In this document: piece after piece, positions 6,515-28,834 of the stretch
Layout: the number at the start of each line of letters is the position of its first letter
How positions within the stretch are numbered: position 1 is the stretch's first letter
DNA from: Bacteroidales bacterium
GTDB lineage: Bacteria; Bacteroidota; Bacteroidia; Bacteroidales; UBA932
Direction: 5' to 3'
Length of the DNA: 34,683 nt
Assembly: GCA_017429765.1 (NCBI GenBank)
Contig: JAFROJ010000075.1
Span: 1 to 34,683, forward strand
Made by a program: the position numbers and the translations under genes
Notes under the pieces: generated by a model
Seen by the model: the letters and a program-made list of their open reading frames with translations, nothing else
Told to the model about the DNA's origin: nothing
Database searches by the model: none

Positions 6515-7671
6515 TGGAAGCGGCTGAGAGGACATATCTTATACTTCTGAAGGAAGGCTTGTGGGCCGGCCTTTCGACCGTTCGACAGGCTCACGGCGGC
6601 GCTGGCTCAGGGACCGGGTCCCCGGTTGGTGAGCTTGTCGAACCACCGGGCCCTGTCGAAGGGCCGGCATTGAACCTTGCTTGGCGTCTGGCGAGGATGC
6701 AGGCGACGAGGGGAGTAGTGGGGCAGGCGCTGCTTGATTCGGGCGTCCTTTCTCCGGAAGGGGAAGACGCTGTAAGTAAGCGGGTTCTGGAGATAGTCGC
6801 CAATAATCTTAAGCTGGAGAAGGCCCTGGCCAAAAGCGTCGGCGCCTTGAGGGAAGCGGGCATCGAGCCAGTCCTCCTGAAAGGGCAGGGAGTGGCCTCT
6901 TGCTATCCGCAGCCCCTCATCCGGGAATGCGGCGACATCGACCTTTATGTCGGGAAAGAGAACTACCGGAAGGCCTTCGAGGTCCTGTCCGCTTTGTCGG
7001 GGGGCCTGAACGAGGAAGAGTTCAAGCCCAAGAGCAAACACAGCCATGTGGAGATCGAGGGCATTCCTGTCGAGGCGCACCAGTTCAGCGACGCCCTGCC
7101 GCCAAGGTACGACCGGACCTATCAGGAGATTTCCGACCGCTGTCTTTCCGACGGCTTCGTGACCCTTGAGTTCTCGGGAGTGCCTGTCAGGACCCCGGAA
7201 CCAACTTTCCATGCTTTCTTCCTGTTCAACCATCTTTGGCGCCATTTCTTCACGGAGGGAGTAGGCTTCCGCCAGGTCTGCGACTGGACGATGTACCTTC
7301 ATGTCCACAAAGACAGTATCGACCTTAATAGACTTCAGGATATCCTTGAGTCCCTAGACATCACGACCCCTTGGAAGGTGTTCGGGAATATCGCCGTGGA
7401 GGTCCTTGGGCTTCCAGCGGAGGAGATGCCTTTCCATGAGCCGAAGATGTCCCGGAGGATTGGCAAAGTCGTCCGTATGATGTTGAAAGAAGGGAACTTC
7501 GGCCACGAGCGCAAGGATTGGTACGAGCTTGACAGGACGTCTGTCTGGGGCCTTGTCAAGGTCTTCCTCTCGATCTCCCGTCGCTATCTCGGCCTCTTCC
7601 CGGTCTTCGGCCCGGTTGTCTTACGGGAATATTCAGCGAGGATTCGGAGACGTATCGCTCGGAAAGATTGA
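6514..7671 (+). CDS. Nucleotidyltransferase-fold protein (PF14907-like) with in-frame palindromic insert
   Basis: A 385-residue protein. ILLKGQG (about 120-126) and the catalytic-type GDIDLYV (140-146) mark the NTP_transf_5 branch of the polymerase-beta nucleotidyltransferase fold, with D141 and D143 as metal ligands. The substrate is unknown; relatives sit in polysaccharide loci, as here. The GTG start overlaps the previous stop (TAGTG), indicating coupled translation, and the residues before the insert (ERTYLILLKEGLW) are typical for the family start. Residues 18-52 are an odd Gly/Pro/Val-rich stretch encoded by a nested palindrome at 6565-6668. It interrupts the N-terminal helix region and continues as WRLARMQATRG. 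The insert has no stop and keeps the frame, so the protein may still fold. Confidence 0.78.
   Translation: MEAAERTYLILLKEGLWAGLSTVRQAHGGAGSGTGSPVGELVEPPGPVEGPALNLAWRLARMQATRGVVGQALLDSGVLSPEGEDAVSKRVLEIVANNLKLEKALAKSVGALREAGIEPVLLKGQGVASCYPQPLIRECGDIDLYVGKENYRKAFEVLSALSGGLNEEEFKPKSKHSHVEIEGIPVEAHQFSDALPPRYDRTYQEISDRCLSDGFVTLEFSGVPVRTPEPTFHAFFLFNHLWRHFFTEGVGFRQVCDWTMYLHVHKDSIDLNRLQDILESLDITTPWKVFGNIAVEVLGLPAEEMPFHEPKMSRRIGKVVRMMLKEGNFGHERKDWYELDRTSVWGLVKVFLSISRRYLGLFPVFGPVVLREYSARIRRRIARKD
6565..6668. repeat. In-frame nested palindromic element 1 (REP/RPE-like)
   Basis: Outer arms GCCGGCCTTTCGAC (6565-6578) and GTCGAAGGGCCGGC (6655-6668) pair with one mismatch over 14 bp. Inner arms GTTCGACAGGCTCAC (6580-6594) and GTGAGCTTGTCGAAC (6629-6643) also pair with one mismatch over 15 bp. 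A small palindrome GGGACC-G-GGTCCC (6610-6622) lies in the centre. The inner arms resemble the dispersed bacterial motif TTCGACAGGCTCA/TGAGCTTGTCGAA. The element starts exactly at codon 18 of the host gene and is read through without a stop. Confidence 0.75.
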
Positions 7672-7680
7672 AGTTTTTGT

Positions 7681-7688
7681 TATCTTTG
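7681..7688 (+). promoter_or_regulatory. -7 element TATCTTTG before the 4,6-dehydratase gene
   Basis: TATCTTTG is an exact TAnnTTTG match, 13 nt before the ATG at 7702. No good TTG is found 19-21 nt upstream, so the -33 part is weak. It would let the dehydratase be transcribed apart from the two genes before it. Confidence 0.55.
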
Positions 7689-7701
7689 CGGACTTGCGGA
7701 T

Positions 7702-9645
7702 ATGAAGAGACTAAAAGATCTGTTTAACTGGTATTTCTCCAAGAAGACACTACCGTACTGGTGTGTCTTGGTGATTGATTGCTTGATCCTCCTTGGCACC
7801 AGTGTCGTCATCTTTTGGGCTTTCTATCGAACCCTCGCCCTGCTGAAATATTTCTGGACCCTGATGCGGGTGATGTTGATCTACATCGCCGAGACGGTGG
7901 TCTTTTTCCGGATATTCCGGACCTATGCGGGGATCTTGAGATATTCATCATTCGTGGATCTGATGAGGATCGGCTCCGCCATGGCATGCGCCCTATTCGT
8001 CGCCTTCATAATCCACTATCCTTTAAGTCGGACCCCGATCTCTCTTTTCGCCCACCTTACCGCCAGGGCGTTGTTCATGATCTATGTCATCGCCACCGCG
8101 ATCATGTGGCTGGAGAGGATGTTGATCAAGGCGGTCTATGACACCTATTTCCGCACCGATTCCGCTAAATCTGTTGTCATCTACGGCATCCGGGCGGGCG
8201 GCATCGGGCTCGCCAAATCAATCCGGGGCGAGAAGCCTATGAGGTTCAAGCTCAAGGGGTTCATCTCTCATGACCCCTCCCTTCAAGCGAAGGGAACTAT
8301 CCTCATGGGCGAGCCTGTCTTCGATGTTGACGAGAAACTCACCGATGAGCTGAAAGAGAGGAATGTGGAGGCCGTCCTGGTCGCGCCCGGAAGGATTGAG
8401 CGCTTCCGCGAGGACCAGGCTCTCCAGGACTATATTCTCAAGAGCGGGGCTAAGATTTATTTCGCCCAGGCGGCTGTCGAGTGGGACAAGGATAATCTCG
8501 TCGGGTCTCCCTCTTTGAAGGAGGTCAAGATCGAGGACCTTCTGCCTCGCGACGAGATCAAGTTGGACCTCGATTCTGTGGCGAGGGAGTTGAGCGGCAA
8601 GAAGGTGTTCATTTCCGGCGCCGCCGGCAGTATAGGAAGCGAGATCGTGCGTCAGGTGGCCTCTTTCGGTCCCTCTGAGATGATGCTGGTTGACTCCGCT
8701 GAGACGCCGCAGCATGACATCCGCCTGATGATGAGGCGAGATTTCCCTTCTGTCAAGGCATCCACTATTGTGGCGAGCGTCTCTAACGCCGGCAGGATGG
8801 AGGCGCTGTTCAAGGAGTTCCAGCCCGATTATGTCTTCCACGCCGCGGCCTACAAGCATGTGCCGATGATGGAGGACAACCCTTCCGAGAGTGTGCAGAA
8901 CAATGTCTATGGCACCAAGGTCCTGGCCGACCTGGCGGTCAAATACGGGGTCAAGAAGTTCGTGATGGTCTCCACCGACAAGGCGGTCAACCCGACCAAT
9001 GTCATGGGTTGCTCGAAACGGTTGTGCGAGATTTACGTCCAGAGCCTGAATAAGGCCGAGGAGGAGGGTATGGTCGAGGGGCACACCCAGTTTGTGACCA
9101 CGAGGTTTGGTAATGTGCTGGGTTCCAATGGTTCTGTCATCCCGATTTTCGAGAGGCAGATCAAGGAAGGCGGCCCGGTGACGGTGACTCATCCGGACAT
9201 TATCCGCTATTTCATGCTCATCCCTGAGGCTTGCAAGCTGGTGCTTGAGGCGGCCGTGAAGGGGGAGGGCGGTGAGATATTCGTCTTCGACATGGGCAAA
9301 CCGGTCAAGATCGCGGATCTCGCCAGGAGGATGATCGAGTTGAGCGGTGTGCCCGACATGGAGATCAAGTTCACGGGTCTCCGCGAGGGCGAGAAGCTTT
9401 ACGAGGAGGTGCTCGACTCGAAGGAGTCGACGAAGCCTTCATTCAATGACAAGATCCGTATCGCGACTGTCCGTGAATATGACTATTCGGTCGTGAGCGG
9501 GCAGATCGACGAGTTAATAACCATCTCGCGTGAATATGACGACCTCAAGACTGTGGCGGCGATGAAGCGGCTTGTGCCGGAGTTCGTCAGTAATCAGTCG
9601 CGTTTCTCGGTTCTGGACCAGGAGGTTGTCAGAGGTGGAGATTAA
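7702..9645 (+). CDS. Membrane-bound PglF/CapD-type nucleotide-sugar 4,6-dehydratase
   Basis: A 647-residue protein. Four membrane segments fill about residues 18-145, followed by a CoA-binding-like nucleotide domain (VVIYGIRAGGIG near 160) and then the extended SDR catalytic domain. The NAD motif GAAGSIGSE is at about 305-313. The active site is S424-T-D-K-A-V then TNVMGCSKR, giving M435 in place of the usual Tyr and K439, the MxxxK form of inverting 4,6-dehydratases such as PglF and FlaA1. Expected reaction: UDP-GlcNAc (or relative) to the 4-keto-6-deoxy sugar at the inner face of the membrane. The aminotransferase at 5273-6514 is its natural next step. Its last 11 nt overlap the start of trmO. 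Confidence 0.9.
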   Translation: MKRLKDLFNWYFSKKTLPYWCVLVIDCLILLGTSVVIFWAFYRTLALLKYFWTLMRVMLIYIAETVVFFRIFRTYAGILRYSSFVDLMRIGSAMACALFVAFIIHYPLSRTPISLFAHLTARALFMIYVIATAIMWLERMLIKAVYDTYFRTDSAKSVVIYGIRAGGIGLAKSIRGEKPMRFKLKGFISHDPSLQAKGTILMGEPVFDVDEKLTDELKERNVEAVLVAPGRIERFREDQALQDYILKSGAKIYFAQAAVEWDKDNLVGSPSLKEVKIEDLLPRDEIKLDLDSVARELSGKKVFISGAAGSIGSEIVRQVASFGPSEMMLVDSAETPQHDIRLMMRRDFPSVKASTIVASVSNAGRMEALFKEFQPDYVFHAAAYKHVPMMEDNPSESVQNNVYGTKVLADLAVKYGVKKFVMVSTDKAVNPTNVMGCSKRLCEIYVQSLNKAEEEGMVEGHTQFVTTRFGNVLGSNGSVIPIFERQIKEGGPVTVTHPDIIRYFMLIPEACKLVLEAAVKGEGGEIFVFDMGKPVKIADLARRMIELSGVPDMEIKFTGLREGEKLYEEVLDSKESTKPSFNDKIRIATVREYDYSVVSGQIDELITISREYDDLKTVAAMKRLVPEFVSNQSRFSVLDQEVVRGGD

Positions 9646-10489
9646 TCCCATAGCGTATTTCAGGTCTCCTTTCGGGGAGAAGTTCGGGATCCCCCGCCAG
9701 GCCGGTCTGGCGCCTGGGCTCCGCGGCCGCGTCGTGTTCGAGCCTCTCTATCGCTCCGCCGACGCCCTCCGCGGCCTCTCCGGCTTCGACTACCTCTGGC
9801 TCCTCTGGGGATTTTCGGGGAATGCCGGTCGGCAGGTGGAAGGTCTGGCAAGTCCGGACTTTCCACACCAATCGCCATGCCATGAGGAAGAAGCTCCCAC
9901 GGGTGACGTGGAGCGGAGCGACCGGGGGAGTCTGAGGGGAACGCCCCTCAGTCCCCCTCGGGGGCGCAGGGGGGTTGAAGGCGAAAGCGCTGTGGCTTGG
10001 AAAGCCACAGTGCGGCCGCCGAGACTCGGCGGCAACGAGCGGGTGGGGGTGTTCGCGAGCCGGTCGCCGTTCAGGCCGAACCCGCTGGGGCTGTCATCGG
10101 TCCGGCTGGAGTCGATAGACTATGACGCCAAAGGCCCTGACGGGAAGCCCCTCGGGCCGGTGATCAACGTCCTCGGCGCCGACCTCATGGACGGCACCCC
10201 GATCTACGACATCAAGCCCTACATCGAGTACGCCGACTCCCATCCCGGCGTCCGCTCCGGCTTCGTCGACACCACCGTCTGGGAGCCCCTGGAAGTCGTG
10301 TTTCCCGCCGGCGCCGAGTCCAAAGTCGAGGACCTGGACACTCTCCGGGACATCCTATCCCTCGACCCCAGGCCACCCTATCACGACGACCCTACCAAGG
10401 AGTACACAATGTCTTACGGCCGCCGCGAGATCCGCTTCCGAGTCGAGGGCCAAGTGTTGATTGTTAACGATATTCTTGTTATTATTTAA
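9635..10489 (+). CDS. trmO: tRNA m6t6A37 methyltransferase TrmO with in-frame insert
   Basis: TrmO (TsaA/YaeB) adds a methyl group to the N6-threonylcarbamoyladenosine at position 37 of tRNA-Thr, using S-adenosylmethionine. The hallmark block VRPPRLGGNERVGVFASRSPFRPNP is clear at about 126-150, and the N-terminal EINPIAYFRSPFGEKFGIPRQ matches family starts. I place the start at the GTG at 9635, inside the end of the dehydratase gene; an upstream extension to 9572 has no family similarity. E. coli TrmO has about 13 residues between its WLLF and VRPP; this protein has about 67. The extra 54 residues (about 64-118), rich in Gly, Arg, Pro and Glu, are encoded by a palindrome-rich segment. Activity may be kept if the loop tolerates it. 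The C-terminal domain is complete. Confidence 0.88.
   Translation: MEINPIAYFRSPFGEKFGIPRQAGLAPGLRGRVVFEPLYRSADALRGLSGFDYLWLLWGFSGNAGRQVEGLASPDFPHQSPCHEEEAPTGDVERSDRGSLRGTPLSPPRGRRGVEGESAVAWKATVRPPRLGGNERVGVFASRSPFRPNPLGLSSVRLESIDYDAKGPDGKPLGPVINVLGADLMDGTPIYDIKPYIEYADSHPGVRSGFVDTTVWEPLEVVFPAGAESKVEDLDTLRDILSLDPRPPYHDDPTKEYTMSYGRREIRFRVEGQVLIVNDILVII
9850..10013. repeat. In-frame palindromic element 2, inside trmO
   Basis: Three palindromes lie in the extra loop of TrmO. AAGTCCGGACTT is at 9850-9861. CTGAGGGG-AACG-CCCCTCAG is at 9932-9951, extended by GGGGGA (9924-9929) pairing with TCCCCC (9952-9957) past a 2-nt bulge. CTGTGGCTT-GGA-AAGCCACAG is at 9990-10010, extendable to 9987-10013 with one wobble. 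No stop codon is present in the host frame. The last palindrome overlaps the codons for WKAT just before the conserved VRPP. Confidence 0.72.
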
Positions 10490-10506
10490 TTTTTTTAATA
10501 TATTTA
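10476..10506 (+). promoter_or_regulatory. Probable promoter for the buk/BCAA-fermentation operon
   Basis: TTG at 10476-10478, 20 nt, then TATATTTA at 10499-10506, one base off TAnnTTTG, in an AT-rich stretch at the end of trmO. The start of transcription would be near 10512, 14 nt before the ATG at 10526. Confidence 0.52.
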
Positions 10507-10525
10507 AGGGCGATTAATTGAAGAA

Positions 10526-11659
10526 ATGAAGGGTAACATACTTATAATCAACACCGGTTCCACGACCACCAAACTCGGTTATTTCTCCGACGGGGTCAGG
10601 GTTTTTGACGAGAAACTCGAGCACAGCGCCGACGAGGTCGCCAAGTACAAGTCCGTCATGGACCAGAGCGACATGCGCCGCGAGGCCATCACCGATTTCC
10701 TGAGATCGAGGGGTATCCCGCTCGAGGACATAGACATCGTCATGGCCCGCGGAGGCCTGTTCACCCCGGTCATCACCGGAGTCTACAATGTCAACCAGGA
10801 CATGCGTGATGTCCTCATCAGCTGCCGAGACGGCCTCCACGCCTGCAACCTCAGCGCCGTGCTGGCTGACGACATAGCCAAGGAGATCAACGCCATCAGG
10901 GATGAGAAAGGACTTGAGCCCCGCTTCGGAAAGACGGTGGCCTATGTCGCCGACCCGCCCATGGCCGACGAGATGCTTCCGGAGTGCAGGATGGGAGGCA
11001 TTCCCGAGTTCACCCGCAAGACCCTCTTCCACGCCCTCAACTCCAGGGCCATTGTCCGGAGGTACCTCCGTGAGCACGGCCTGACAGTCAACAACGTCAC
11101 CCTCATCGTGGCCCACATGGGAGGCGGCGCGACCATCTCCCTCCACAAGAACGGGAAGGTGATCGATGTCAACCACGGCCTCGGAGGCGACGGCCCCATC
11201 ACCCCCGAGAGGGCGGGCTGCTGCCCTCCTTTCGAGCTGATAGACATGTGTTTCAGCGGGAAATACACCAAGGAGGAGATCAAGCTTAAGCTTGTCGGGA
11301 AAGGCGGCGCCGTGGCTTATTTCGGCACCAACAGCCTTCTTGACGTCGAGAATATGGCCGCTGCCGGCGACGAGCGCGCCATCCTCTTCCTTAAGGCCTA
11401 TGTCCTGAATATTTGTAAATACATAGCCGCGATGGCCGCTGTGGCCGACGGCAAGGTGGACGCCATCCTCCTGACCGGAGGCATCGCCCACAGCAAGAAG
11501 CTGATGGGCGACATCAAGAACAAGATCGGCTTCATCGCCCCCGTCGAGGTCTTCCCCGGCGAGGACGAGATCAACAGCCTGGCCGAGAACGGCTACATGA
11601 TCCTCTCCGGCCAGACCAAGATCCACACCTACAACAAGGACAGGATCATCGAGGACTGA
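10526..11659 (+). CDS. buk: Butyrate kinase (branched-chain fatty acid kinase)
   Basis: A 377-residue member of the acetate/butyrate kinase (ASKHA) family. The first phosphate-binding strand IINTGSTTTKLGYF, the AHMGGGATIS block, the DVNHGLGGDGPITPERAG block and the late ILLTGGIAHS match butyrate kinases. It converts butyryl- or branched acyl-phosphate plus ADP to the acid plus ATP in the cytoplasm. The neighbours, a branched-chain aminotransferase and a 2-oxoacid:ferredoxin oxidoreductase, point to isobutyryl-, isovaleryl- and 2-methylbutyryl-phosphate as physiological substrates. The partner phosphate acyltransferase (Ptb) that usually sits beside Buk is not in this window. It is the first gene of a run in one direction reaching at least 15700. 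Confidence 0.93.
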   Translation: MKGNILIINTGSTTTKLGYFSDGVRVFDEKLEHSADEVAKYKSVMDQSDMRREAITDFLRSRGIPLEDIDIVMARGGLFTPVITGVYNVNQDMRDVLISCRDGLHACNLSAVLADDIAKEINAIRDEKGLEPRFGKTVAYVADPPMADEMLPECRMGGIPEFTRKTLFHALNSRAIVRRYLREHGLTVNNVTLIVAHMGGGATISLHKNGKVIDVNHGLGGDGPITPERAGCCPPFELIDMCFSGKYTKEEIKLKLVGKGGAVAYFGTNSLLDVENMAAAGDERAILFLKAYVLNICKYIAAMAAVADGKVDAILLTGGIAHSKKLMGDIKNKIGFIAPVEVFPGEDEINSLAENGYMILSGQTKIHTYNKDRIIED

Positions 11660-11698
11660 CAACCATTGACAGAAACCACATAACTAAAACCACACGAT

Positions 11699-12742
11699 AT
11701 GCCAAATATAGATTGGAACAATCTCTCTTTCAGTTACACAAGGACGAGGACGATTGTCTACAGCCGCTGCGTGGACGGGAAATGGGAGACTCCGGTGGCG
11801 ACCGAGGACTTCAACCTGCTCCTCAACCCTTTCGCCGGTGTCTTTCATTACGCCCCCTCATGCTTCGAGGGCTTGAAGGCCTTCCGGGGGGTGGACGGCA
11901 GGATAAGGCTGTTCCGTCCCGACATGAACTGGAAAAGGCTCGTCAGCGGAGCCAAGTATCTTGATATGCTGTTCCCCTCAGAGGAGATGTTCATCGACAT
12001 GTGTGTCCAGTGCGTCAAGGGCAACATGGAGTTCATCCCTCCCTATGAGGCCTCGAGCGCTTCCCTCTATCTCCGTCCCGTCCTCTTCGGTTTGAACCCC
12101 CAGTTGGGAATACGTTCCGCCAAGGACGTGATGTGCGTGGTGATGTGCTCACCCGTGGGGACATATTCAGGAGACAAGAGCCTCCTTCCGGCCACGGCGG
12201 TCATCTCCCGTGACTACGACCGTTCCGCGCCGTTCGGCTCCGGAGGCTATAAGCTAGGCGCCAACTACGCCCAGTCCCTCCACGCCTACAACCTCGCCCA
12301 CAACCAGGGCTACAGGGAGCTCCTCTTCCTGGACTCGGCCACTAAGACCACCATCGAGGAGTTCGGCTCCTCCAACTTCTTCGCCATCAAGGGCGACACC
12401 TACATCACACCTCTCTCCAGCACCATCCTTCCCTCGATCACCAACGCCAGCCTCAGGACCGTGGCCGAAGACTTTGGGATGAAGATCGAGATGAGACCCG
12501 TCAAGGTCGAGGAACTCGCTGAGTTTGACGAGGTTTGCTCTTGCGGCACAGCCGTGGTGATCACCCCGGTCTGCTCGATAGACGACAAGCCCGCCCTCGA
12601 GTCGCCCGTCGTGACCCGTCGTTACTCCATCGGCTCGCCGGACCATTGCGGCCCGAAGAGCGAGTCCCTCTATTGGAAGATAATCGGCATCCAGAAAGGT
12701 CTGGAGCCTGACCCGAGGGGCTGGTGCCTCTTCGTGGAGTAG
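11699..12742 (+). CDS. ilvE: Branched-chain amino acid aminotransferase
   Basis: A 347-residue fold-type IV PLP enzyme. Family blocks seen are FHYAPSCFEGLKAFRG, LYLRPVLFG, the Schiff-base lysine in GGYKLGANYAQS, EEFGSSNFFAI and EVCSCGTAVVITPV, all in order and of normal length for the larger BCAT group. It swaps the amino group of Val, Leu or Ile with 2-oxoglutarate. In this operon the degradative direction makes sense: the 2-oxoacids feed the ferredoxin oxidoreductase encoded at 13046-15700. It is 39 nt after buk and 6 nt before the small TPR gene. It may also serve biosynthesis if it is the only copy in the genome, which the window cannot show. Confidence 0.92.
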   Translation: MPNIDWNNLSFSYTRTRTIVYSRCVDGKWETPVATEDFNLLLNPFAGVFHYAPSCFEGLKAFRGVDGRIRLFRPDMNWKRLVSGAKYLDMLFPSEEMFIDMCVQCVKGNMEFIPPYEASSASLYLRPVLFGLNPQLGIRSAKDVMCVVMCSPVGTYSGDKSLLPATAVISRDYDRSAPFGSGGYKLGANYAQSLHAYNLAHNQGYRELLFLDSATKTTIEEFGSSNFFAIKGDTYITPLSSTILPSITNASLRTVAEDFGMKIEMRPVKVEELAEFDEVCSCGTAVVITPVCSIDDKPALESPVVTRRYSIGSPDHCGPKSESLYWKIIGIQKGLEPDPRGWCLFVE

Positions 12743-12748
12743 GGGTCC

Positions 12749-13024
12749 ATGGAAGATCTGGGAGCCATCGAGGCGATCCTCCAGGCCGGGAAAGTCGAAG
12801 AGGCGGTCACTCTGCTCAAGGAATATATCTCCGCTTCCCCGACCCCTTCCGACAGGGCTTATTACCTTCTCGGGAACGCTTTCCGGAAGAGAGGTGACTG
12901 GCAGGGGGCTATCAACAACTACCTCGAGGCCATGGCGATCAACCCGGACAGCCCGGCGAGGAACGCCTACGCTATCGCCAACGAGATCCTGGACTTCTAC
13001 AACAAGGATATGTACAATCAATAA
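12749..13024 (+). CDS. Small TPR protein of the oxidoreductase operon
   Basis: A 91-residue acidic protein. Residues 36-70 contain a clear tetratricopeptide unit (AYYLLGNAFRKRGDWQGAINNYLEAMAINP), with a weaker helical pair before it (EAILQAGKVEEAVTLLKEY). It has no signal peptide or metal motif. It lies 6 nt after the aminotransferase and 21 nt before the ferredoxin subunit, so it belongs to the operon. A TPR this short is most likely a scaffold or assembly factor for the oxidoreductase complex. That is inference from position; I do not know a characterised homologue. Confidence 0.8.
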   Translation: MEDLGAIEAILQAGKVEEAVTLLKEYISASPTPSDRAYYLLGNAFRKRGDWQGAINNYLEAMAINPDSPARNAYAIANEILDFYNKDMYNQ

Positions 13025-13045
13025 CAATTAATCACTCAAGGTATT

Positions 13046-13276
13046 ATGGCTAGAATGAAAGGAGCGGCGGTCGTCGACACGGAGAGATGCAAGGGTTGCG
13101 AGCTCTGCGTCATCGCCTGCCCGCTTGACGTCCTCGCCCTCACGAGCAAGGAAGTTAACCGAAAGGGCTACAACTTCGCCCATGAGGTTCTCGCTGACAC
13201 CTGCACGGGCTGCGCCTCCTGCGCCACAGTCTGCCCGGACGGGTGCATAACCGTTTACCGACTTAAAACCGAGTAA
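13046..13276 (+). CDS. 2x[4Fe-4S] ferredoxin subunit of 2-oxoacid oxidoreductase (delta)
   Basis: A 76-residue ferredoxin-like subunit. Two cluster motifs are complete: CKGCELCVIACP and CTGCASCATVCP, each CxxCxxCxxxCP. It passes electrons from the thiamine-diphosphate site of the beta subunit to free ferredoxin. Its stop is 3 nt before the alpha subunit, so the four subunits (delta, alpha, beta, gamma) are encoded in that order. As a separate small subunit this is the VorD/KorD type, as opposed to the fused form of many pyruvate:ferredoxin oxidoreductases. Confidence 0.92.
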   Translation: MARMKGAAVVDTERCKGCELCVIACPLDVLALTSKEVNRKGYNFAHEVLADTCTGCASCATVCPDGCITVYRLKTE

Positions 13277-13279
13277 GAC

Positions 13280-14359: not shown

Positions 14360-14371
14360 AATCAGGAAGCC

Positions 14372-15145: not shown

Positions 15146-15157
15146 AAAATCGAAGAT

Positions 15158-15700: not shown

Positions 15701-15709
15701 CGCGGCTTA

Positions 15710-16936: not shown

Positions 16937-16940
16937 GATC

Positions 16941-19544: not shown

Positions 19545-19566
19545 AACCTATGAATATTAATCTGTC

Positions 19567-20866: not shown

Positions 20867-20874
20867 ATTATCAC

Positions 20875-21990: not shown

Positions 21991-22007
21991 ATCGCGAATA
22001 TAACTTT

Positions 22008-23228
22008 TTATTCGTAACGTAGGGCCTCGATGGGGTCGAGATTGGAGGCTTTACGGGCGGGATACCACCCGAAGAATATGCCGATGAGGGTACAGACCGC
22101 GAAGGAGAGGAATATGCTCCAGCTGGAGATAGCGACGGGGTAGCTCAGCAGCGCTTTGACGACATAAGCCGCCACTATCCCGAGCAGCACCCCTATCACT
22201 CCTCCGGCCACGCTCAGCAGGGTGGCCTCGATGAGGAACTGCGACAGGATGTCACGGCCTTTGGCGCCGATACTCATCCTCAGACCGATCTCCCTGGTCC
22301 TCTCGGTGACGCTGACGTACATTATATTCATGATTCCTATTCCTCCGACAATCAGGGAGATGGCCGCCACGGCGGCGAGCAGGGAACTCATCATGTCGCT
22401 GGTGCTTGTCATCATCGACGAGAGCTCCTGCTGGGAGCGGATGTTGAAGTCGTCGTCGGCGTCCTCCTTGAGTTTGTGGTTGGCGCGGAGAACCTCGCTG
22501 ATCTCCTCGATGGCCTTGTCGGTGAACTCCTCGCTCAGGGCCGAGCAGGTGATTCCCTGGAGGTAGGTCACCGCCTGGATCCTTTTCATCACTGTCGTGT
22601 AGGGCACGAGCATGAGGTCGTCCTGATCCATTCCCATCGTGTTGCTTCCCTTGCTCTCGAGGATCCCCACGATCCTGAAAGGAATGGTGCCGAAGCGGAT
22701 GACCTTCCCCACAGGCTCCTCCCCGTTCGTGAACAGCGCGTCGACGACAGTCTTGCCCACGAGGCAGACTTTCGCGGCGGAGTGGATGTCCTGGTCCGAG
22801 AAGACGTCCCCTTCCTCGACCTTGTAGTTGCGTATCTCAAGATAGTCCTGGTTGACCCCGTAGACTGAGGTGGGGGTGTTGTTGGCCCCGTAGACCGCCT
22901 GTCCTGAGGCGTTGACGGTGGGGGAGACGAGGCTGACATACTTGCAGCTTGAGCGGATGTCCTCGTAGTCCTTGACCTTGAGGGTCTGCATGTCGTCACT
23001 GCTCATCCTGACTCCGCCCATCCTCTCGGCTCCGGGGGAGATCATGATCATGTTCGACCCCATCTCGCTGATCTCGGCCTTGATGCTGTTCTTGGAACCT
23101 TGGCCGATGGCGAGCATGGTGATCACTGACCCCACGCCGATGATGATGCCCAGCATCGTCAGGAAACCGCGGAATTTATTGTCACTGAGCGCTTTCAGGG
23201 CTAATCTCAACAAATTGGTGATGTTCAT
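22008..23228 (-). CDS. MacB-type ABC transporter permease (FtsX fold)
   Basis: A 406-residue permease with the MacB layout: one membrane segment near the start (FRGFLTMLGIIIGVGSVITMLAIGQG), a large periplasmic domain of about 220 residues, then three segments in the FtsX domain (MMSSLLAAVAAISLIVGGIGIMN onward). TERTREIGLRMSIGAKGRDI is the conserved cytoplasmic loop that couples to the ATPase. Unlike E. coli MacB, the ATPase is a separate gene, encoded 6 nt upstream. With the adaptor and the TolC-like channel it would form a tripartite mechanotransmission pump exporting peptides, macrolides or lipid-like molecules. Confidence 0.92.
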   Translation of the reverse strand: MNITNLLRLALKALSDNKFRGFLTMLGIIIGVGSVITMLAIGQGSKNSIKAEISEMGSNMIMISPGAERMGGVRMSSDDMQTLKVKDYEDIRSSCKYVSLVSPTVNASGQAVYGANNTPTSVYGVNQDYLEIRNYKVEEGDVFSDQDIHSAAKVCLVGKTVVDALFTNGEEPVGKVIRFGTIPFRIVGILESKGSNTMGMDQDDLMLVPYTTVMKRIQAVTYLQGITCSALSEEFTDKAIEEISEVLRANHKLKEDADDDFNIRSQQELSSMMTSTSDMMSSLLAAVAAISLIVGGIGIMNIMYVSVTERTREIGLRMSIGAKGRDILSQFLIEATLLSVAGGVIGVLLGIVAAYVVKALLSYPVAISSWSIFLSFAVCTLIGIFFGWYPARKASNLDPIEALRYE

Positions 23229-23234
23229 GGCTCG

Positions 23235-23978
23235 TTAATCTTTCTCTATCGGGAGAGCCGAGAGAGCCTCGGCCGCGTCCAGTATGTTGTCGTTTCTTTT
23301 GTCGCTGGTGACCTTGCCGTCCTTGAGGGTGATCGTCCTCGTGCTGTACAAGGCGATCTCGGGATTGTGGGTCACGAATATGATTGTCCTTCCCTCGGAG
23401 TGGAGTTTCTGGAACAGGACGAGCACCTCGAAGCTGGTCCTGGTGTCCAGGTTTCCGGTGGCCTCGTCGGCGAGAATGACCGCGGGGTTGTTCACGAGAG
23501 CCCTGGCTATCGCCACCCTTTGCATCTGGCCTCCGGACATCTGGTTGCTCTTGTGCTCCAGACGGTCCCCGAGCCCGACGGCCTTGAGAGCCTCGACGGA
23601 CATCTCCCTGCGCTCCTTCCTGGAATATTCCGGGTTGTACATCAGGGGCAGCTCGACATTCTCGATGGCCGTGGTCCTGGGAAGAAGGTTGTAGTTCTGG
23701 AACACGAAGCCGATCTTCCTGTTCCTCAGGGTCGCCCTCTGGTCCTTGTTCATGGTCCTGACCGCGACCCCGTCCAGGTAGTATTCTCCAGATGTCGGGG
23801 TGTCAAGGCAGCCGAGGGTGTTCAGGAGGGTGGATTTCCCGGATCCCGAGGAGCCCATGATGGTCACGAACTCGCCCTCCATGATGCTGAAGGTGACTCC
23901 TCTGAGGGCACGGACCACCTCTGAGCCGACCTTGAAGTCCCGCTTGATGTTCTCAAGCCTGATCACTTCCTTTTCCAT
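23235..23978 (-). CDS. MacB/LolD-type ABC transporter ATP-binding protein
   Basis: A 247-residue nucleotide-binding subunit. Walker A is GSSGSGKST at about 42-50, the Q-loop is in VFQNYNLLPRTTAIENVELPL, the signature is MSGGQMQRVAIARAL, Walker B is PAVILADEATGNLD, and the switch His is in FVTHNPEIA. This is the MacB/LolD/FtsE branch. The gene is 5 nt from the adaptor and 6 nt from the permease, so the three are translated as a unit. It powers the pump from the cytoplasm. Confidence 0.94.
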   Translation of the reverse strand: MEKEVIRLENIKRDFKVGSEVVRALRGVTFSIMEGEFVTIMGSSGSGKSTLLNTLGCLDTPTSGEYYLDGVAVRTMNKDQRATLRNRKIGFVFQNYNLLPRTTAIENVELPLMYNPEYSRKERREMSVEALKAVGLGDRLEHKSNQMSGGQMQRVAIARALVNNPAVILADEATGNLDTRTSFEVLVLFQKLHSEGRTIIFVTHNPEIALYSTRTITLKDGKVTSDKRNDNILDAAEALSALPIEKD

Positions 23979-23983
23979 CGAAC

Positions 23984-25183
23984 TTACCTTTTAGGTTGCC
24001 CGCCGTTCCTGTTGCCGCCGCCGCGAGGCCCGGGGGCGAAGGGGCTTCTCTCAACGCTCTCGACTTTCTTGGGGGCCTCGGCGGTGAAGCCTGTCACCAC
24101 CTCGTCGCCTTCCTGGAGTCCGCCGGATATTCCTGTCCTGTCGCCGCTCGTGTTGCCGGTGACCACCTGCACAGGGGTGATGGTCTCGCCTCTCTTGACC
24201 CAGACAGTCTTGGTCGAGTCGGTCATCTTGGGCATACCTTCCAATTTAACTCCAAGATCGTCAAGCATTTCCTTGTCGGGATTGAACCTCAGGGCCTTGG
24301 TCGGGACGGAGAGGATATCTTCCTCCTCAAGGGTGTAGATCGTGATCGTGGCCGTCAGCCCGGGCTTCACCTTCAGGTCGGGGTTGGGGGCGTTGATCAC
24401 CACCTCGTAGGTCACGACGTTGGAGGTCGTGGTGGCCTCAAGCCTGACCTGGCTGACTCTTCCCTCGAAGACATCGTCCGGATAGGCGGCGACGGTGTAG
24501 GTGACCCTCTGACCTTCCTTGACCTGTCCGATGTCAGCCTCGTCCACATTGGCGATAACCTGCATGTCCGACAGGTCCTTGGCGATGGTGAACAGGGTCG
24601 GGGTGGAGAATCCGGCCGCCACCGTCTGCCCCTCCTCGACCGCCTTGCTGATCACGACGCCGTCAATAGGGGAGGTGATGGTCGCGTAGGAGAGGTTCCT
24701 CTTGACCTTCGTGTAGGAGGCCTGGGTCTGGGAATAGGCGTTCTTGGCGCTCTGGTACTGGTATTGAGCCTGGTCGAACTCGGAGTCGCTCACGAGCTCC
24801 TTGTCGTGCAGGGTTTTCATGCGGTTATATTCCTTCTCCTGGTACTCGTACTCGGTCTTGGCGGTGGCGAGCTGGGCGTTGGCCGCCGAGAGCTCTGCAA
24901 CGAGGTTGACCTTGTCCATCTCCGCGATCACCTGACCGGCCTTGACCACGTCGTTGTAGTCCACATAGAGCTTGCTGATGATTCCGGAAACCTGTGTTCC
25001 GATCTCGACTTTCGTCACCGGCTCGACTGTGCCGGTCGCCGTGACAGAGTTAGAGATGTCGATCCTTTGAACCATCGCTGTCTCGAGCGCCACTTGGTCT
25101 TTCCCCGTGGGCCTGAACACAAGCCATAGGACGGCGGCCGCCGCGATGACACCTATGACCATCCACAATGTCTTCTTTTTCAT
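23984..25183 (-). CDS. MacA-like periplasmic adaptor (membrane fusion protein)
   Basis: A 399-residue adaptor. An N-terminal membrane anchor (about 5-24) is followed by the lipoyl half-motifs (TVEPVTKVEIGTQVSGIISKLYVDYNDVVKAGQVIAEMD and ATITSPIDGVVISKAVEEGQTV). Between them lies a helical hairpin of about 85 residues, and beta-barrel and membrane-proximal domains come after. The C-terminal 30 residues are Gly/Arg/Pro-rich, as in many Bacteroidetes adaptors. It links the inner-membrane ABC pump to the outer-membrane channel encoded 4 nt upstream. Hairpin length and partners suit the MacA type better than an RND adaptor. Confidence 0.92.
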   Translation of the reverse strand: MKKKTLWMVIGVIAAAAVLWLVFRPTGKDQVALETAMVQRIDISNSVTATGTVEPVTKVEIGTQVSGIISKLYVDYNDVVKAGQVIAEMDKVNLVAELSAANAQLATAKTEYEYQEKEYNRMKTLHDKELVSDSEFDQAQYQYQSAKNAYSQTQASYTKVKRNLSYATITSPIDGVVISKAVEEGQTVAAGFSTPTLFTIAKDLSDMQVIANVDEADIGQVKEGQRVTYTVAAYPDDVFEGRVSQVRLEATTTSNVVTYEVVINAPNPDLKVKPGLTATITIYTLEEEDILSVPTKALRFNPDKEMLDDLGVKLEGMPKMTDSTKTVWVKRGETITPVQVVTGNTSGDRTGISGGLQEGDEVVTGFTAEAPKKVESVERSPFAPGPRGGGNRNGGQPKR

Positions 25184-25187
25184 ATTC

Positions 25188-26543
25188 TTATCCGTTTATA
25201 TTGTAATTACCTTGATAGATGTCGAGAAGGATGTTCCCAAGGATGGCGTTGTATTTCGCCTGAAGCAGGGATACCTGAGCGCTCAGAAGGCTGTTCTGGG
25301 CGTTGATCAACTCGACGGTGTTTTTCTTTCCGACCTTGAAAGCCTCGGAGGTGTACTCGTAGCTCTGGGCGGCGTATTTCTCCTGCTCCTTGGCCGAGAT
25401 GTACTGGGACTGGGAGGAGACAGCGCTCAGATAGGCGTCCTCGACCTCCTTGAGAAGGGTCTTCTCGGCGCTGAGCCGCTGGAGCCTGCTGTTGTCGGCG
25501 GCGATCTTGGCCTTGTTGACGCTTGTCTTGTTGCGCCTTCCCTGAAGGATCGGGACGCTGAGACTGAGCCCTATGCTCTCGTTGAAATTCTTCTCCAGCT
25601 GGCTAGCGAATGAGTTGCCCGTCCCGGAGACGCTTGCGGTGCTGATCCCGGCGTTGGCGGAGAGGGAGGGGAGAGCGCCGCTCTTGGCCTGCTTGACGGA
25701 GAGTTCCGCGGCCTCGACGCTGAGTCCCGCCTTCTTGATCTCCGGCATGGCGTCAAGAGCCTCGCGGTAGACATCCTCTTTGGCCGGAAGGAGCTTGAGG
25801 ACATAGCTCTCGTCGTCCTCTGGGGCCACCAGCTCGATGTCCTCGCTTATTCCCAGCTCAAGGAGCTGCTTGAGCTGGAGGAGGCTGTTGGCCAGGTTGA
25901 CTTCCGACGAGGTGATCTGGTAGACGTCGCTGGCGTGCTGGCTCTCGAGCTGCGCGACATCAACCTTGCTCATCTCACCGGCGTTCTTCATCTCGACCGC
26001 CCTGTCGAGGGCCATCCCGGAGGCCTCGGCGTTGCTCTCGCTGACCGAGAGGGCCTCCTTGGCGTAGAGGCAGTTGAGGTAGGCCTGCACGATAGAGATG
26101 ACAACGTCGTTTGTCGTCTCCTCGACGGAGAGCGAGTCGATCGAGTTCTGGACCATCTGCTGTTTCAGCGCTGTGCGGAGACTTCCGCCGTTCCACAGGG
26201 TGATCCCGGCGTTGACCCCGTAGTTGCCTGAATAACTGGTCGACTTTGAGGTGCTGAAAACATTGGACCCGACCACGGAGCTTGTCCCCGTGTCGGAGAA
26301 AGGCCTGTTGGACACGCCCTGACTGCTGGAGGCGCTGACGGTGGGCAGCATGGCCGCCTTGGCCTGGTAGGTGTCCTCAAGCCCTGACAAAAAACTGTTC
26401 CTGCTCTGTCGGAGGGAAATGTTGTTGTCGATGGCGTAGTCGATGCAGTCCTGCAGCGTCCACGTCCTGGTCTGGCCTGTCGCGGCCGCTCCGATGAACA
26501 GGGCAGGAACAGTGGCCGTCAATAGTCTCAAGATTCTTTTCAT
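25188..26543 (-). CDS. TolC-family outer-membrane efflux channel
   Basis: A 451-residue TolC-like protein from the ATG at 26543. That start gives a clean signal peptide (MKRILRLLTATVPALFIGAAATGQ); an upstream extension to 26582 would add non-signal residues and overlap the promoter. Two internally similar halves follow, each with long helices (the first from WTLQDCIDYAIDNNISLRQ, the second from EDVYREALDAMPEIKKAG) and barrel strands (SGNYGVNAGITLWNGG; IGLSLSVPILQG). It forms the outer-membrane exit duct of the pump. It is the promoter-proximal gene of the six-gene minus-strand operon ending with the regulator. Confidence 0.92.
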   Translation of the reverse strand: MKRILRLLTATVPALFIGAAATGQTRTWTLQDCIDYAIDNNISLRQSRNSFLSGLEDTYQAKAAMLPTVSASSSQGVSNRPFSDTGTSSVVGSNVFSTSKSTSYSGNYGVNAGITLWNGGSLRTALKQQMVQNSIDSLSVEETTNDVVISIVQAYLNCLYAKEALSVSESNAEASGMALDRAVEMKNAGEMSKVDVAQLESQHASDVYQITSSEVNLANSLLQLKQLLELGISEDIELVAPEDDESYVLKLLPAKEDVYREALDAMPEIKKAGLSVEAAELSVKQAKSGALPSLSANAGISTASVSGTGNSFASQLEKNFNESIGLSLSVPILQGRRNKTSVNKAKIAADNSRLQRLSAEKTLLKEVEDAYLSAVSSQSQYISAKEQEKYAAQSYEYTSEAFKVGKKNTVELINAQNSLLSAQVSLLQAKYNAILGNILLDIYQGNYNING

Positions 26544-26575
26544 ATCATATCGTGTTTTATTTCCGATTCCGGCGA

Positions 26576-26583
26576 CAAACATA
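26576..26583 (-). promoter_or_regulatory. -7 element for the efflux operon
   Basis: On the minus strand this reads TATGTTTG, an exact TAnnTTTG, 32 nt before the tolC-like ATG. No TTG lies at the expected -33 distance. A second element for the opposite gene lies about 70 nt away, so the 116-nt gap is a divergent control region. Confidence 0.5.
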
Positions 26584-26648
26584 GAAGATTCCGCCTTTAT
26601 TCAGAAACTCATTCGACGAACATGGGAGAATCATCGACGAAAATGCTT

Positions 26649-26656
26649 ATCTTGGT
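26649..26656 (+). promoter_or_regulatory. Possible -7 element for the YhhN-ALDH gene
   Basis: TATCTTGG is one base off TAnnTTTG. It ends 3 nt before the ATG at 26660, so the transcript would be leaderless or nearly so, or the true start is further downstream. Treat as weak. Confidence 0.3.
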
Positions 26657-26659
26657 TGT

Positions 26660-28834
26660 ATGAAATCTCTGAGATATCTTTTCCTCGTTCCGGTTGCCAT
26701 GAACCTGGCCGGACAATTGGCCGGGCTAAGAGCCTTGACTCTTATCTCGAAACCCCTCCTGATGCCCCTTATCGCCCTCTCGGTCCTGATCCTGCTCAAG
26801 GAACATGATGTCCGGGACAGGCGTGTGGGGCTGATAGTCGCCGCGCTTCTTCTCGGCGCCGTCGGGGATGTCCTCCTCATGCTGGAGGGGACAGGCTGTT
26901 TCCTCGCCGGGATGGGGGCTTTCTTCCTCGGGCATATATTCTATTTCAGTGTCATCCCGGCCCCTTGGAAGGTCAAGGGGCTGTCGGGCAAATTCCTCTC
27001 CGCCTTATTCCTGGCGGCCTTGCTAGCCTTTGTCATCACACTCGCCGGCAGATTCCCGCTGCAGGGACCCATGCGCGTGGCCGTGACTGTCTACGCGTGC
27101 GCGTTCGCCTTCCTGATCCACGCCGGCGTTGTCGCCGCCGTCGACAGGAGGAGGCCGTTTTATCTCTTGACAGTCCTCGGTTTCGCCGTTTTCGCCGTCT
27201 CTGACACTTTCGTCGCCATCGGCGCCTTCACGGACCTGGCTGTCCCTCAGCGGGGTTTCATCGTGATGTCAACCTACATCGCGGCTCAGTTGACCGTGGC
27301 CTTCTCACTGGCCCTCGAGGAGATCGATTCTCTGGAGAAGACTGAATATGGGGTCAGGGCGAAGAGGCTATATGCCCTTGAGGATGCGCTGAAAGCCCGC
27401 GAGGACGATCTCGTCAAGGCCTTCGACGAGGACTTCGGCAAGGGAGCCTTCGAGGTCTACACGACAGAGGTGGGCTTCCTTTATAATAATATCAGGAATA
27501 TTCTCACCCATCTGCGGGACTGGATGCGGCCCAAGGCGGTTCCGACCCCTTTCGTGCTGTGGCCGGGCCGTAGCAGGATCATGTTCGAGCCCTACGGCAA
27601 AGTGCTTGTCATCGGGCCTTTCAACTATCCTCTCCACCTTGTCGTCGCTCCGCTGGCCGCCGCCCTCGCGGCTGGTAACACGGTTGTCGTGAAACCTTCG
27701 AGGCAGACCCCGAACGTGTCCCGGGTCCTTTCCGAGGCGCTTAGGGAAGCGTTTGATCCTGAGGTGGTTGAGATTGTGGATCCGGCGATGTCGAATGAGG
27801 AGATGCTCGCCAGGCGGTACGACTACATATTCTTCACGGGAAGCCCGAAGGTCGGGAAGGTCGTGATGGAGGCGGCCTCAAAGCACTTGACTCCAGTCAC
27901 CCTTGAGCTTGGCGGGAAGAGTCCGGCTATTGTCTGCGAGGGGGCTCCGGCTAGGCTGGCTTGCGAGCGGATCGCCAAGGGCAAGTTCCTTAACGCTGGC
28001 CAGACTTGCGTGGCTCCGGATTATGTCCTTGTCCATGAGTCTGTCCACGACGAGTTCATCTCCACGATGAGGGATGTCGTCAAAGAGTTTTTCGGCGACA
28101 TCTCTGTCCGTCCGGCCGAGATGACCCTCATGGCCACCGGGCGTCACTTCGACCGTGTCGCGGCGTTGATTCCGGGCGTTCAGGCTTCCGGCGCCGCCCC
28201 GGCCGGAACGGACACTGCCTCCCTCGGCACGTTAAGAGGGGGGACCGGAGCCGAGCATGGCGAGGCGAGCGGTGGGGCCGAGCGAAGCGAGGCGTCCTGC
28301 CGGTCGGGGTCGGCGCCGGAAGCTACCGCGCCGGACTCTCTTTGTGAGGCTGAAGCCAGAGGCGAGGTGGTGATCGGTGGCTACACGGACGCTGAGAAGC
28401 GCTATATAGCACCTACTGTGATAGACAACTGCACCTGGGACGCCCCGGCGATGCGGGAGGAAATCTTCGGCCCCGTGTTGCCTGTCATAACCTACAAGGA
28501 CCTTCAGACCGAAGTCATCGACAAAGTAAAGGACGGAGAGAAACCCCTGTCGCTTTACATATTCTCGAGGAACCGCCGCGAGACCCGCTCAATTCTCTCA
28601 CAGGTTTCCTTCGGAGGCGGTTGCGTCAACGAGACCATGATGCATCTCGGCAATGAGAACCTCCCCTTCGGAGGTGTGGGCGAGTCCGGCATGGGAGCCT
28701 ATCACGGAAAGACTGGCTTCGAGACCTTCTCGCACCAGAAGTCATTGCTGCTCAAGTCGTCATGGCTCAACATAGACCTCCTCAAGCCCCCTTACGGAAG
28801 GAAGCTTGATTTGATCAGGAAGTTCTATAAATAA
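26660..28834 (+). CDS. YhhN (lysoplasmalogenase-type) / aldehyde dehydrogenase fusion
   Basis: A 724-residue two-domain protein. Residues 1-220 are a full YhhN/TMEM86 membrane domain: about seven or eight segments, with GAVGDVLLM (D70), FFLGHIFYF (H92) and SDTFVAI (D182). The family includes enzymes that cleave the vinyl ether of lysoplasmalogen to a fatty aldehyde. Residues 225-724 are a class 3-like aldehyde dehydrogenase: VLVIGPFNYPLH, FTGSPKVGK, E416 in LELGGK, nucleophile C450 in NAGQTC, and EEIFGPVLPV. Only about the first dozen usual residues of the dehydrogenase are missing. The two reactions are consecutive, so the fusion suggests aldehyde channelling from lipid cleavage to fatty acid. 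Residues about 506-566 are an in-frame palindromic insert not expected in the family. No stop or frameshift was seen between the domains. Confidence 0.82.
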   Translation: MKSLRYLFLVPVAMNLAGQLAGLRALTLISKPLLMPLIALSVLILLKEHDVRDRRVGLIVAALLLGAVGDVLLMLEGTGCFLAGMGAFFLGHIFYFSVIPAPWKVKGLSGKFLSALFLAALLAFVITLAGRFPLQGPMRVAVTVYACAFAFLIHAGVVAAVDRRRPFYLLTVLGFAVFAVSDTFVAIGAFTDLAVPQRGFIVMSTYIAAQLTVAFSLALEEIDSLEKTEYGVRAKRLYALEDALKAREDDLVKAFDEDFGKGAFEVYTTEVGFLYNNIRNILTHLRDWMRPKAVPTPFVLWPGRSRIMFEPYGKVLVIGPFNYPLHLVVAPLAAALAAGNTVVVKPSRQTPNVSRVLSEALREAFDPEVVEIVDPAMSNEEMLARRYDYIFFTGSPKVGKVVMEAASKHLTPVTLELGGKSPAIVCEGAPARLACERIAKGKFLNAGQTCVAPDYVLVHESVHDEFISTMRDVVKEFFGDISVRPAEMTLMATGRHFDRVAALIPGVQASGAAPAGTDTASLGTLRGGTGAEHGEASGGAERSEASCRSGSAPEATAPDSLCEAEARGEVVIGGYTDAEKRYIAPTVIDNCTWDAPAMREEIFGPVLPVITYKDLQTEVIDKVKDGEKPLSLYIFSRNRRETRSILSQVSFGGGCVNETMMHLGNENLPFGGVGESGMGAYHGKTGFETFSHQKSLLLKSSWLNIDLLKPPYGRKLDLIRKFYK
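28184..28323. repeat. In-frame palindromic element 3, inside the ALDH domain
   Basis: Arms GCTTCCGGCGCCG (28184-28196) and CGGCGCCGGAAGC (28311-28323) pair perfectly over 13 bp. Pairing continues with CCCCG (28197-28201) to CGGGG (28305-28309) past one bulged T, then GCCGG (28202-28206) to CCGGT (28300-28304) with one wobble. The stem is about 23 bp around a GC-rich core. The core encodes Gly/Ala/Glu/Ser-rich sequence without a stop. It replaces the short loop between RHFDRVAALI and GEVVIGGYTD. Confidence 0.8.

Follow-up and report, generated by a model that had tools for sequence, protein, structure and literature searches.

A palindromic element lying in frame, in either orientation, in unrelated genes of Bacteroidales, with a proposed mode of movement

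In a contig of 34,683 nucleotides from a Bacteroidales bacterium (assembly GCA_017429765.1, contig JAFROJ010000075.1), hereafter called the window, we describe a palindromic repeat, element 3, which lies in the aldehyde dehydrogenase (ALDH) domain of a YhhN-ALDH fusion gene and leaves its reading frame open. The window is the whole of contig C63 of the source genome, G000, whose assembly amounts to 2.36 Mb in 75 contigs. We consider that element 3 is probably, with about three chances in four, a non-autonomous mobile palindromic element, akin in behaviour to the palindromic elements of Rickettsia but invertible, and we propose that it may be moved by a trans-acting enzyme, for which a transposase of the Y1 (HUH) type is a candidate, and rearranged by template switching. 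What is new here, beyond the preliminary description of the window, is the spread of the element through a genus, the stems that are private to each copy and the inversion at one and the same site.

Element 3 in the window and in its source genome

The preliminary description had noticed three palindromic segments, in a nucleotidyltransferase (NTase), in trmO and in the ALDH domain, and had held that they were free of stops in the host frame, added residues foreign to the protein families and did not form one obvious sequence family. Our analysis bore this out. Folded as single-stranded DNA, each segment did better than 200 of 200 dinucleotide shuffles, with z scores of −3.5 for ALDH, −3.8 for NTase and −5.0 for TrmO (the last segment taken as 9867-10013), against −1.4 and 12 equally good shuffles for a control stretch from the window. 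The host frame is open through all three segments, and each of the three inserts is missing from orthologues in other genomes. The segments are three unrelated multi-copy repeat families, elements 1, 2 and 3, of which elements 1 and 2 are separate families sharing the in-frame habit. The likeness to Rickettsia palindromic elements, which had also been proposed, gains support from the further copies, the orthologues without the residues and the presence of several element types; descent from the Rickettsia elements is not implied. The longest inverted repeat within 150 bp in the window is formed by the arms in the ALDH domain (28184-28213/28294-28323). The features of this locus are as follows.

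28184..28323, + strand: element 3, complete unit, in the ALDH domain of the fusion, read in frame as the peptide ASGAAPAGTDTASLGTLRGGTGAEHGEASGGAERSEASCRSGSAPEA (inverted repeat, open frame, BLAST, orthologues)
28184..28213, + strand: 5' arm of element 3, a locus-private stem sequence (matches only itself and its own 3' arm)
28214..28293, + strand: conserved core of element 3, with the hairpin CCCTC-GGCACGTTAA-GAGGG, a second hairpin and a third hairpin GCCGAGCGAAGCGAGGC (copy alignment)
28294..28323, + strand: 3' arm of element 3 (inverted repeat)
26660..28834, + strand: host gene, YhhN-aldehyde dehydrogenase fusion, 724 residues (open frame, Pfam, genome search)

The ALDH insert is missing in the genomes G020 and G495. 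The host gene itself joins a YhhN (lysoplasmalogenase-like) membrane domain and an aldehyde dehydrogenase in one open reading frame (ORF), and of 60 other genomes searched only three, G033, G017 and G020, gave matches covering both parts, with identities of about 70%.

A BLAST search of G000 with element 3 returned 43 matches at E <= 10 and 36 at E <= 1e-3, the window copy being counted, and 38 distinct copies are present in this genome, their cores being 75-97% identical to that of the window copy. Further copies, whose absence would have spoken against the preliminary description, are thus numerous, and half of the 38 (19) lie inside ORFs with Pfam domains and are open there. The hosts are ALDH, PurD, RsmF, a periplasmic binding protein, two aminotransferases, QueH, PurH, IspE, a GH3 enzyme (two copies), IspH, PDH-E2, RsmA, MiaA, an ABC transporter, a GH9 enzyme and DsbD, whose copies lie on two contig pieces and perhaps belong to one gene. 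One further copy, whose frame runs on into the last part of XseA at the edge of a contig, was excluded from the 19. Among the 19 genic copies, 11 are on the plus and 8 on the minus strand of their host; 10 of the 11 plus-strand copies encode a peptide of the ATLG or ASLG type, that in the ABC transporter being the exception, and 7 of the 8 minus-strand copies encode a PRVA-type peptide, from which the GH9 copy partly differs. It was also noticed that contig ends are no more than 200 bp away from 9 of the 38 copies, where about 0.5 would be expected at random, and therefore such repeats, or their mixed orientations, may break assemblies.

Filled, empty and inverted sites among related genomes

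Fourteen element 3 copies of the genome G017 were compared in eight further genomes, in none of which site 261 could be placed. Length differences were multiples of three in 50 of 50 cases at eight genic sites against 8 of 21 at four intergenic sites, which agrees with the frame-keeping that had been suggested; at site 253, which is unclassed, 4 of 4 were multiples of three. Readings in the host frame, whether filled or empty, were without a stop in 58 of 58 cases at these eight genic sites, the eight of G017 itself being counted. Like the Rickettsia palindromic elements, element 3 lies in frame in many unrelated genes and also between genes.

Orientation was counted by the encoded peptide, because labels assigned by sequence pattern were loose and that of G498 at IspE contradicts its peptide. 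By this count both orientations occur at seven of the eight genic sites among the nine genomes, while at BtuF one orientation was found there and the other in G000. At RsmF the core, the inner bases of the arms and a bulged base are reversed in G494 relative to G017 and G498, while the outer arms are the same except for one base; the flanks of G017 and G494 are 90-96% identical, and between the orientations the peptide shifts from QKGLRGSTASLRSAPP...PRVAVVSS to QKGLGDETTATLGTLRGG...EAVEPLRP. The same inversion with shared arms was observed at the intergenic site ig224, where G017 and G494 differ from G499 (flanks 81-82% identical). Because the arms are shared while the orientation is opposite, we read both cases, from their sequences, as probable in-place inversions. 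In this respect element 3 behaves as an inverton does, for at RsmF and at ig224 the segment enclosed by the inverted repeats occurs either way round when genomes are compared.

This raises the question whether element 3 is a programmed inverton, flipped by a site-specific recombinase so that housekeeping enzymes would undergo phase variation between two peptide states. The two shared-arm inversions and the occurrence of both peptide states at seven of eight genic sites would suit this explanation, and gut Bacteroidia carry invertons linked to invertase groups, as stated in the part of the source consulted (PMC11892184). We nevertheless hold it distinctly unlikely, since the stem sequence varies by site and so leaves a sequence-specific recombinase little to recognise past the inner few bases, the swapped bulge at RsmF places the break points outside the inner conserved bases, and the inserts sit in loops of unrelated enzymes. 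It could further be argued, from the recurrence of the same peptides in the same frames, that each insert is retained because it serves its protein as a linker or domain, the palindromes being a by-product of biased composition. Inversion, however, changes the peptide completely, close relatives lack the peptide at the same site, half of the copies lie outside identified genes and stem pairing is far above its control (see below), so that this explanation is barely credible.

Some individual sites deserve mention. At ig238, G495 and G496 carry about 1.66 kb of other DNA in place of the G017 element. The element-free ArgD site of G494 and G498 holds a quasi-palindrome of 25 nucleotides, which may be a scar left by a lost element or a hairpin that serves as a target. 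The RsmF element of G498 has an extra insert in the loop of its first hairpin, and the frame is still kept.

A conserved core on a private stem

Element 3 is a unit of about 120-155 nucleotides, made of a cloverleaf core and two arms which pair as a stem of about 27-30 bp, and is in this respect comparable to the units of about 100-150 bp of the Rickettsia palindromic elements. In the aligned copies the core consists of three hairpins, namely CCCTC-GGCACGTTAA-GAGGG, a second one of variable length and a third with either GCCGAGCGAAGCGAGGC or GCCGCGAAGCGGC; judged by eye, in G000 GCCGAGCGAAGCGAGGC is found mostly in genic copies and GCCGCGAAGCGGC mostly in other copies, copies 4 and 17 being exceptions.

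The stem has quite another character. When pairing was counted on the 145 copies with arms (7 of 152 were skipped), a median of 25 of 30 positions paired with the copy's own opposite arm, against 18 of 30 with the arm of another copy. In the 123 copies which form 22 pairs or more, the arms hold 0.01-0.57 bits per position beyond the inner four bases, yet these positions are paired in 56-97% of the copies. Stem length was first measured on these 123 copies, whose selection for pairing in a window of 30 nucleotides may bias the measure, and was measured again on 138 of the 152 copies with the register fixed on the inner 16 positions only. In the repeat, pairing was 0.71-0.83 at 16-26 nucleotides from the core (mean 0.76), 0.56 at 27 nucleotides and on average 0.40 from 31 nucleotides outward, and the end point of the stem, after 26 nucleotides, was the same in both sets. 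As pairing drops past 26-27 nucleotides though the arm sequences vary, it is the length of the stem that is fixed and not its sequence. Moreover, two-sided changes were seen at 27 of 46 consensus pairs in an alignment of 24 copies, and among 95 distinct stems the 5' arm had an extra base 33 times at 4-10 nucleotides from the core, and the 3' arm 35 times at 13-17 nucleotides out.

Where the arms come from was examined by searching with the outer 26 nucleotides of 27 arms, one of the 28 arms on the list being empty. All of the 44 matches were to the arm itself or to its partner, except for one match of 19 nucleotides at chance level. Copying of the arms from elsewhere in the genome was rejected, as the 27 arms match only themselves or their own partners, and copying from the target found no support at ig238. 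Either new arms are produced each time the element inserts, or the two arms evolve together at a very high rate. They also set element 3 apart from miniature inverted-repeat transposable elements (MITEs), whose terminal inverted repeats are constant in sequence; the arms here are inverted but private to each copy.

The cloverleaf is conserved and the stem covaries strongly, as one would expect if the structure worked as RNA, whether as a leader, a terminator, a riboregulator or a self-removing segment, its coding location being incidental, and by eye some of the non-genic copies are close upstream of apparent start codons. We regard such a role as quite improbable. The genic copies compared are compatible with the frame in both orientations every time, a property that a spliced or removed segment could do without; both strands are used, 8 of the 19 genic copies of G000 being reverse complements; and when ten loci, one of them around element 1 and the other nine around matches to element 3 or element 2, were searched against Rfam at E <= 1, the outcome was only one chance-level match to a small nucleolar RNA, outside the element.

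Distribution of element 3

A 23-mer of the core, allowing up to 3 mismatches, was sought in 200 genomes of the same genus drawn from a larger group. It was found in 97 of them, with 0-32 matches per genome, against 1 match in all for the reversed control; the loop following CTCGGC varies between species. The genus may be Cryptobacteroides, on whose inverted repeats open-access papers yielded nothing. The exact 23-mer occurred in at least 107 stretches of named genome records, and the 80 listed were all metagenome-assembled genomes (MAGs) of Bacteroidales or Bacteroidia; those record titles among the 80 that give an origin point to rumen, omasum, faeces or a ruminant host. The exact 23-mer was absent from the viral contigs searched. 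A search of 295 genomes of the order at E <= 1e-4 returned the own genome only, but this was a weak search, in which 2 of 46 candidates were scored, 2 own copies were reported and the list of genomes included just one further member of the genus.

Proposed mechanism and the candidate mover

We propose that a single strand of element 3 folds into the cloverleaf core on its stem of set length, and that an enzyme acting in trans, most likely one working on folded single strands such as a Y1 (HUH) transposase, would insert it between or into genes. The surviving genic copies would be those which landed in loops or linkers and kept the host frame, and, from the open frames, the mRNA is presumably translated straight through the insert. 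The nearly perfect stem would allow a replicating strand to switch templates between the arms, and such a switch can invert the core in place and would also re-match the arms, which might be part of the reason why the stems are paired but not conserved. Since the outer frame is one and the same for the two orientations and each must be readable from it, the core would be open in the register that inversion dictates, and therefore one site could yield either peptide, ATLGTLRGGTGAERSEASGGAERSEA or ASLRSAPPLASLRSAPVPPLNVPRVAV.

The Y1 transposase is a candidate for the mover. In G000, whose Y1 proteins are encoded on contigs C14, C17 and C56, two Y1_Tnp ORFs score above the family cut-off and one just below it, and Y1_Tnp hits were obtained in 143 of the 200 genomes of the genus. 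They were present in 85 of 97 element-bearing and 58 of 103 element-free genomes (Fisher p 8e-7), a difference that is uncorrected for completeness and kinship.

Several observations weigh against this proposal and have to be set beside it. Three genomes with 6-8 element 3 copies have no Y1_Tnp match, and 33 element-free genomes have three or more. By eye, the 300-400 nucleotides on each side of the three G000 Y1 ORFs hold none of elements 1-3, so that the link to a transposase associated with repetitive extragenic palindromes, which the preliminary description had proposed to look for, did not materialise there; the mover was not found, the genes beside the element copies not having been surveyed for a transposase. 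Template switching is itself inferred from the anatomy of the element, and it does not account for stems of near-random sequence beside cores as alike as 75-97%, nor for bulges at set positions. Shared arms were found at two inversions only, and the other sites with opposite orientations could be independent insertions; independent insertion does occur also, because site 292 holds a different element with other arms. Arm differences between orthologues, judged by eye, are compensated at ig224 and not at ALDH or IspH, and ig238, the one clean empty site (two relatives without the element), shows no target duplication. Furthermore, the genomes compared are assemblies, the named ones being MAGs, and 4 of the 19 genic copies (QueH, PurH and the two DsbD pieces) are cut by contig ends, for which reason the frame past the element was checked for the uncut copies only.

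The presence of Y1_Tnp matches also bears on whether element 3 is simply an ordinary repetitive extragenic palindrome (REP), a REPIN, that is a pair of such palindromes, or a MITE of a known family, moved by a REP-associated tyrosine transposase (RAYT), its private stems being old copies which diverged under hairpin constraint. Element 3 is indeed palindromic, multi-copy and partly intragenic, the matches extend over 143 of 200 genomes, and intragenic GTAG and CGTC REPs are described in the part of the source available (PMC3733652). A unit of 120-155 nucleotides, on length alone, differs from the hairpin of 20-40 bp of REPs, however, no RAYT gene flanked by the repeat was seen among the three G000 Y1_Tnp ORFs within the same 300-400 nucleotides per side, and age alone does not fit stems which are nearly unrelated while the cores are alike. 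We therefore find this explanation unlikely and prefer the mobile, invertible element described above.

A 296-residue Y1_Tnp ORF on contig C17 of G000 has another repeat (GGCGCAGGCGCGACATGCC...GGTTCCACCTGGACCGGTTTC), unlike elements 1-3, on both sides, and looks like a RAYT with its own REPs.

Comparison with known systems

In behaviour, the closest systems appear to be the Rickettsia palindromic elements and intragenic REPs, and by analogy the inverted state links element 3 to invertons. As far as the consulted parts of the sources go, the Rickettsia elements are likewise palindromic repeats of 100-150 bp which lie between genes and in unrelated genes, encode a recurring in-frame peptide and form several families per genome (PMC2229807, PMC10969869). 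According to the portion consulted, it is chiefly in Rickettsia that selfish palindromes have been described lying in frame in conserved genes, and their mode of movement has yet to be established (PMC2229807). Rickettsia belongs to another phylum, and the likeness is drawn from behaviour, not from sequence. From what those parts contain, element 3 differs by its copy-private stem, by same-site inversion with both orientations in frame and by its spread through a genus of many species. The GTAG- and CGTC-tagged REPs with their RAYTs are, in the part available, palindromic and in some cases intragenic (PMC3733652), and Y1 proteins occur in the genus of element 3, but the latter exceeds these REPs several-fold in length, folds with a cloverleaf core and does not adjoin the three G000 Y1 genes.

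In invertons and intragenic inversions, according to the portion consulted, a segment between inverted repeats occurs in either orientation and can alter coding sequence (PMC11892184). Here, by contrast, the segment is a dispersed multi-copy element, the repeats differ by site and the hosts are housekeeping enzymes. Intragenic DNA inversions are reportedly also the subject of work by Chanin and coworkers from 2024. The small hairpin-loop inversions of chloroplasts resemble element 3 in that a loop is inverted between short inverted repeats; their usual explanation needs no recombinase, and they are mostly non-coding single loci in plastids, whereas element 3 is a mobile coding family. In the attC sites of integrons a structure with set bulges is conserved while the sequence varies, which is similar; attC has conserved ends and a variable middle, and in element 3 these parts are reversed, the core being conserved and the ends private. 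In the portions of open-access papers available to us, we noticed no account of private stems or in-place inversion for Rickettsia palindromic elements or REPs.

It is tempting to go further and regard element 3 as the first example of a mobile inverton, dispersed and compatible with coding, whose private stem, of set length and bulge plan, is made at or after insertion and whose core is readable both ways; we offer this tentatively and think it more doubtful than probable. If it were true, the element could spread through essential genes and go on flipping there, giving combinatorial peptide variants of housekeeping enzymes. With 200 sampled species, core matches numbering up to 32 in a genome, close relatives whose sites are empty, filled or inverted, and three families, all in one system, old questions become testable, namely how such elements move, how a stem shape is conserved without its sequence and whether enzymes tolerate or use in-frame inserts. 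For annotators, peptides such as GAERSEASGGAERSEA or SLRSAPPLASLRSAPVPPL in Bacteroidales proteins represent repeat DNA.

Elements 1 and 2

The other two families of the window lie in these features.

6514..7671, + strand: host gene, nucleotidyltransferase (Pfam NTP_transf_5), GTG start (open frame, Pfam)
6565..6668, + strand: element 1, REPIN-like double palindrome with arms GTTCGACAGGCTCAC / GTGAGCTTGTCGAAC, in the N-terminal part of the nucleotidyltransferase (arm matches, folding, orthologues)
9635..10489, + strand: host gene, tRNA N6-methyltransferase TrmO (open frame, family match, orthologues)
9824..10000, + strand: insert in TrmO relative to orthologues (protein alignment)
9836-9866, + strand: hairpin inside the TrmO insert (inverted repeat)
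about 9902-9982, + strand: element 2, inside the TrmO insert (BLAST copies)
9980-9998/10002-10020, + strand: hairpin with its first arm inside the TrmO insert (inverted repeat)

Element 1 resembles a REPIN in having two palindromes head to head. With up to 2 mismatches allowed, its arms gave 83 matches in G000 and the reversed control gave 10. Of 291 genomes from the order, 27 contain the exact arm, G000 being one of them, so that its reach is wider than the genus. No match to the 13-mers of the arms was found in open-access papers. The NTase insert is missing in G033, G013 and G016, and its edges are less sure because the homologues available there are only distant (28-43%). Among the best 45 of the 83 G000 sites, element 1 is read in several frames of many long ORFs, as VPEPVEG, LRQAQGP or GPSTGSGT, and therefore seems to be lodged in many proteins too.

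The positions first assigned to the NTase and ALDH segments hold, while for TrmO protein alignment places the insert at about 9824-10000 and the repeated part at about 9902-9982, in place of the range of about 9850-10013 given earlier. The corresponding loop is about 48-56 residues shorter in six genomes of the same genus (G013, G016, G017, G020, G023 and G033). Element 2 has 4 copies in G000 at E <= 1e-6, that in trmO counted, and among the loci examined it occupies 13 distinct places, 6 of which, judged by eye, directly adjoin element 3 sequence. Its peptide, SERSDxGSLRGTPLSPPRGRRGV or close kin, recurs in several hosts.

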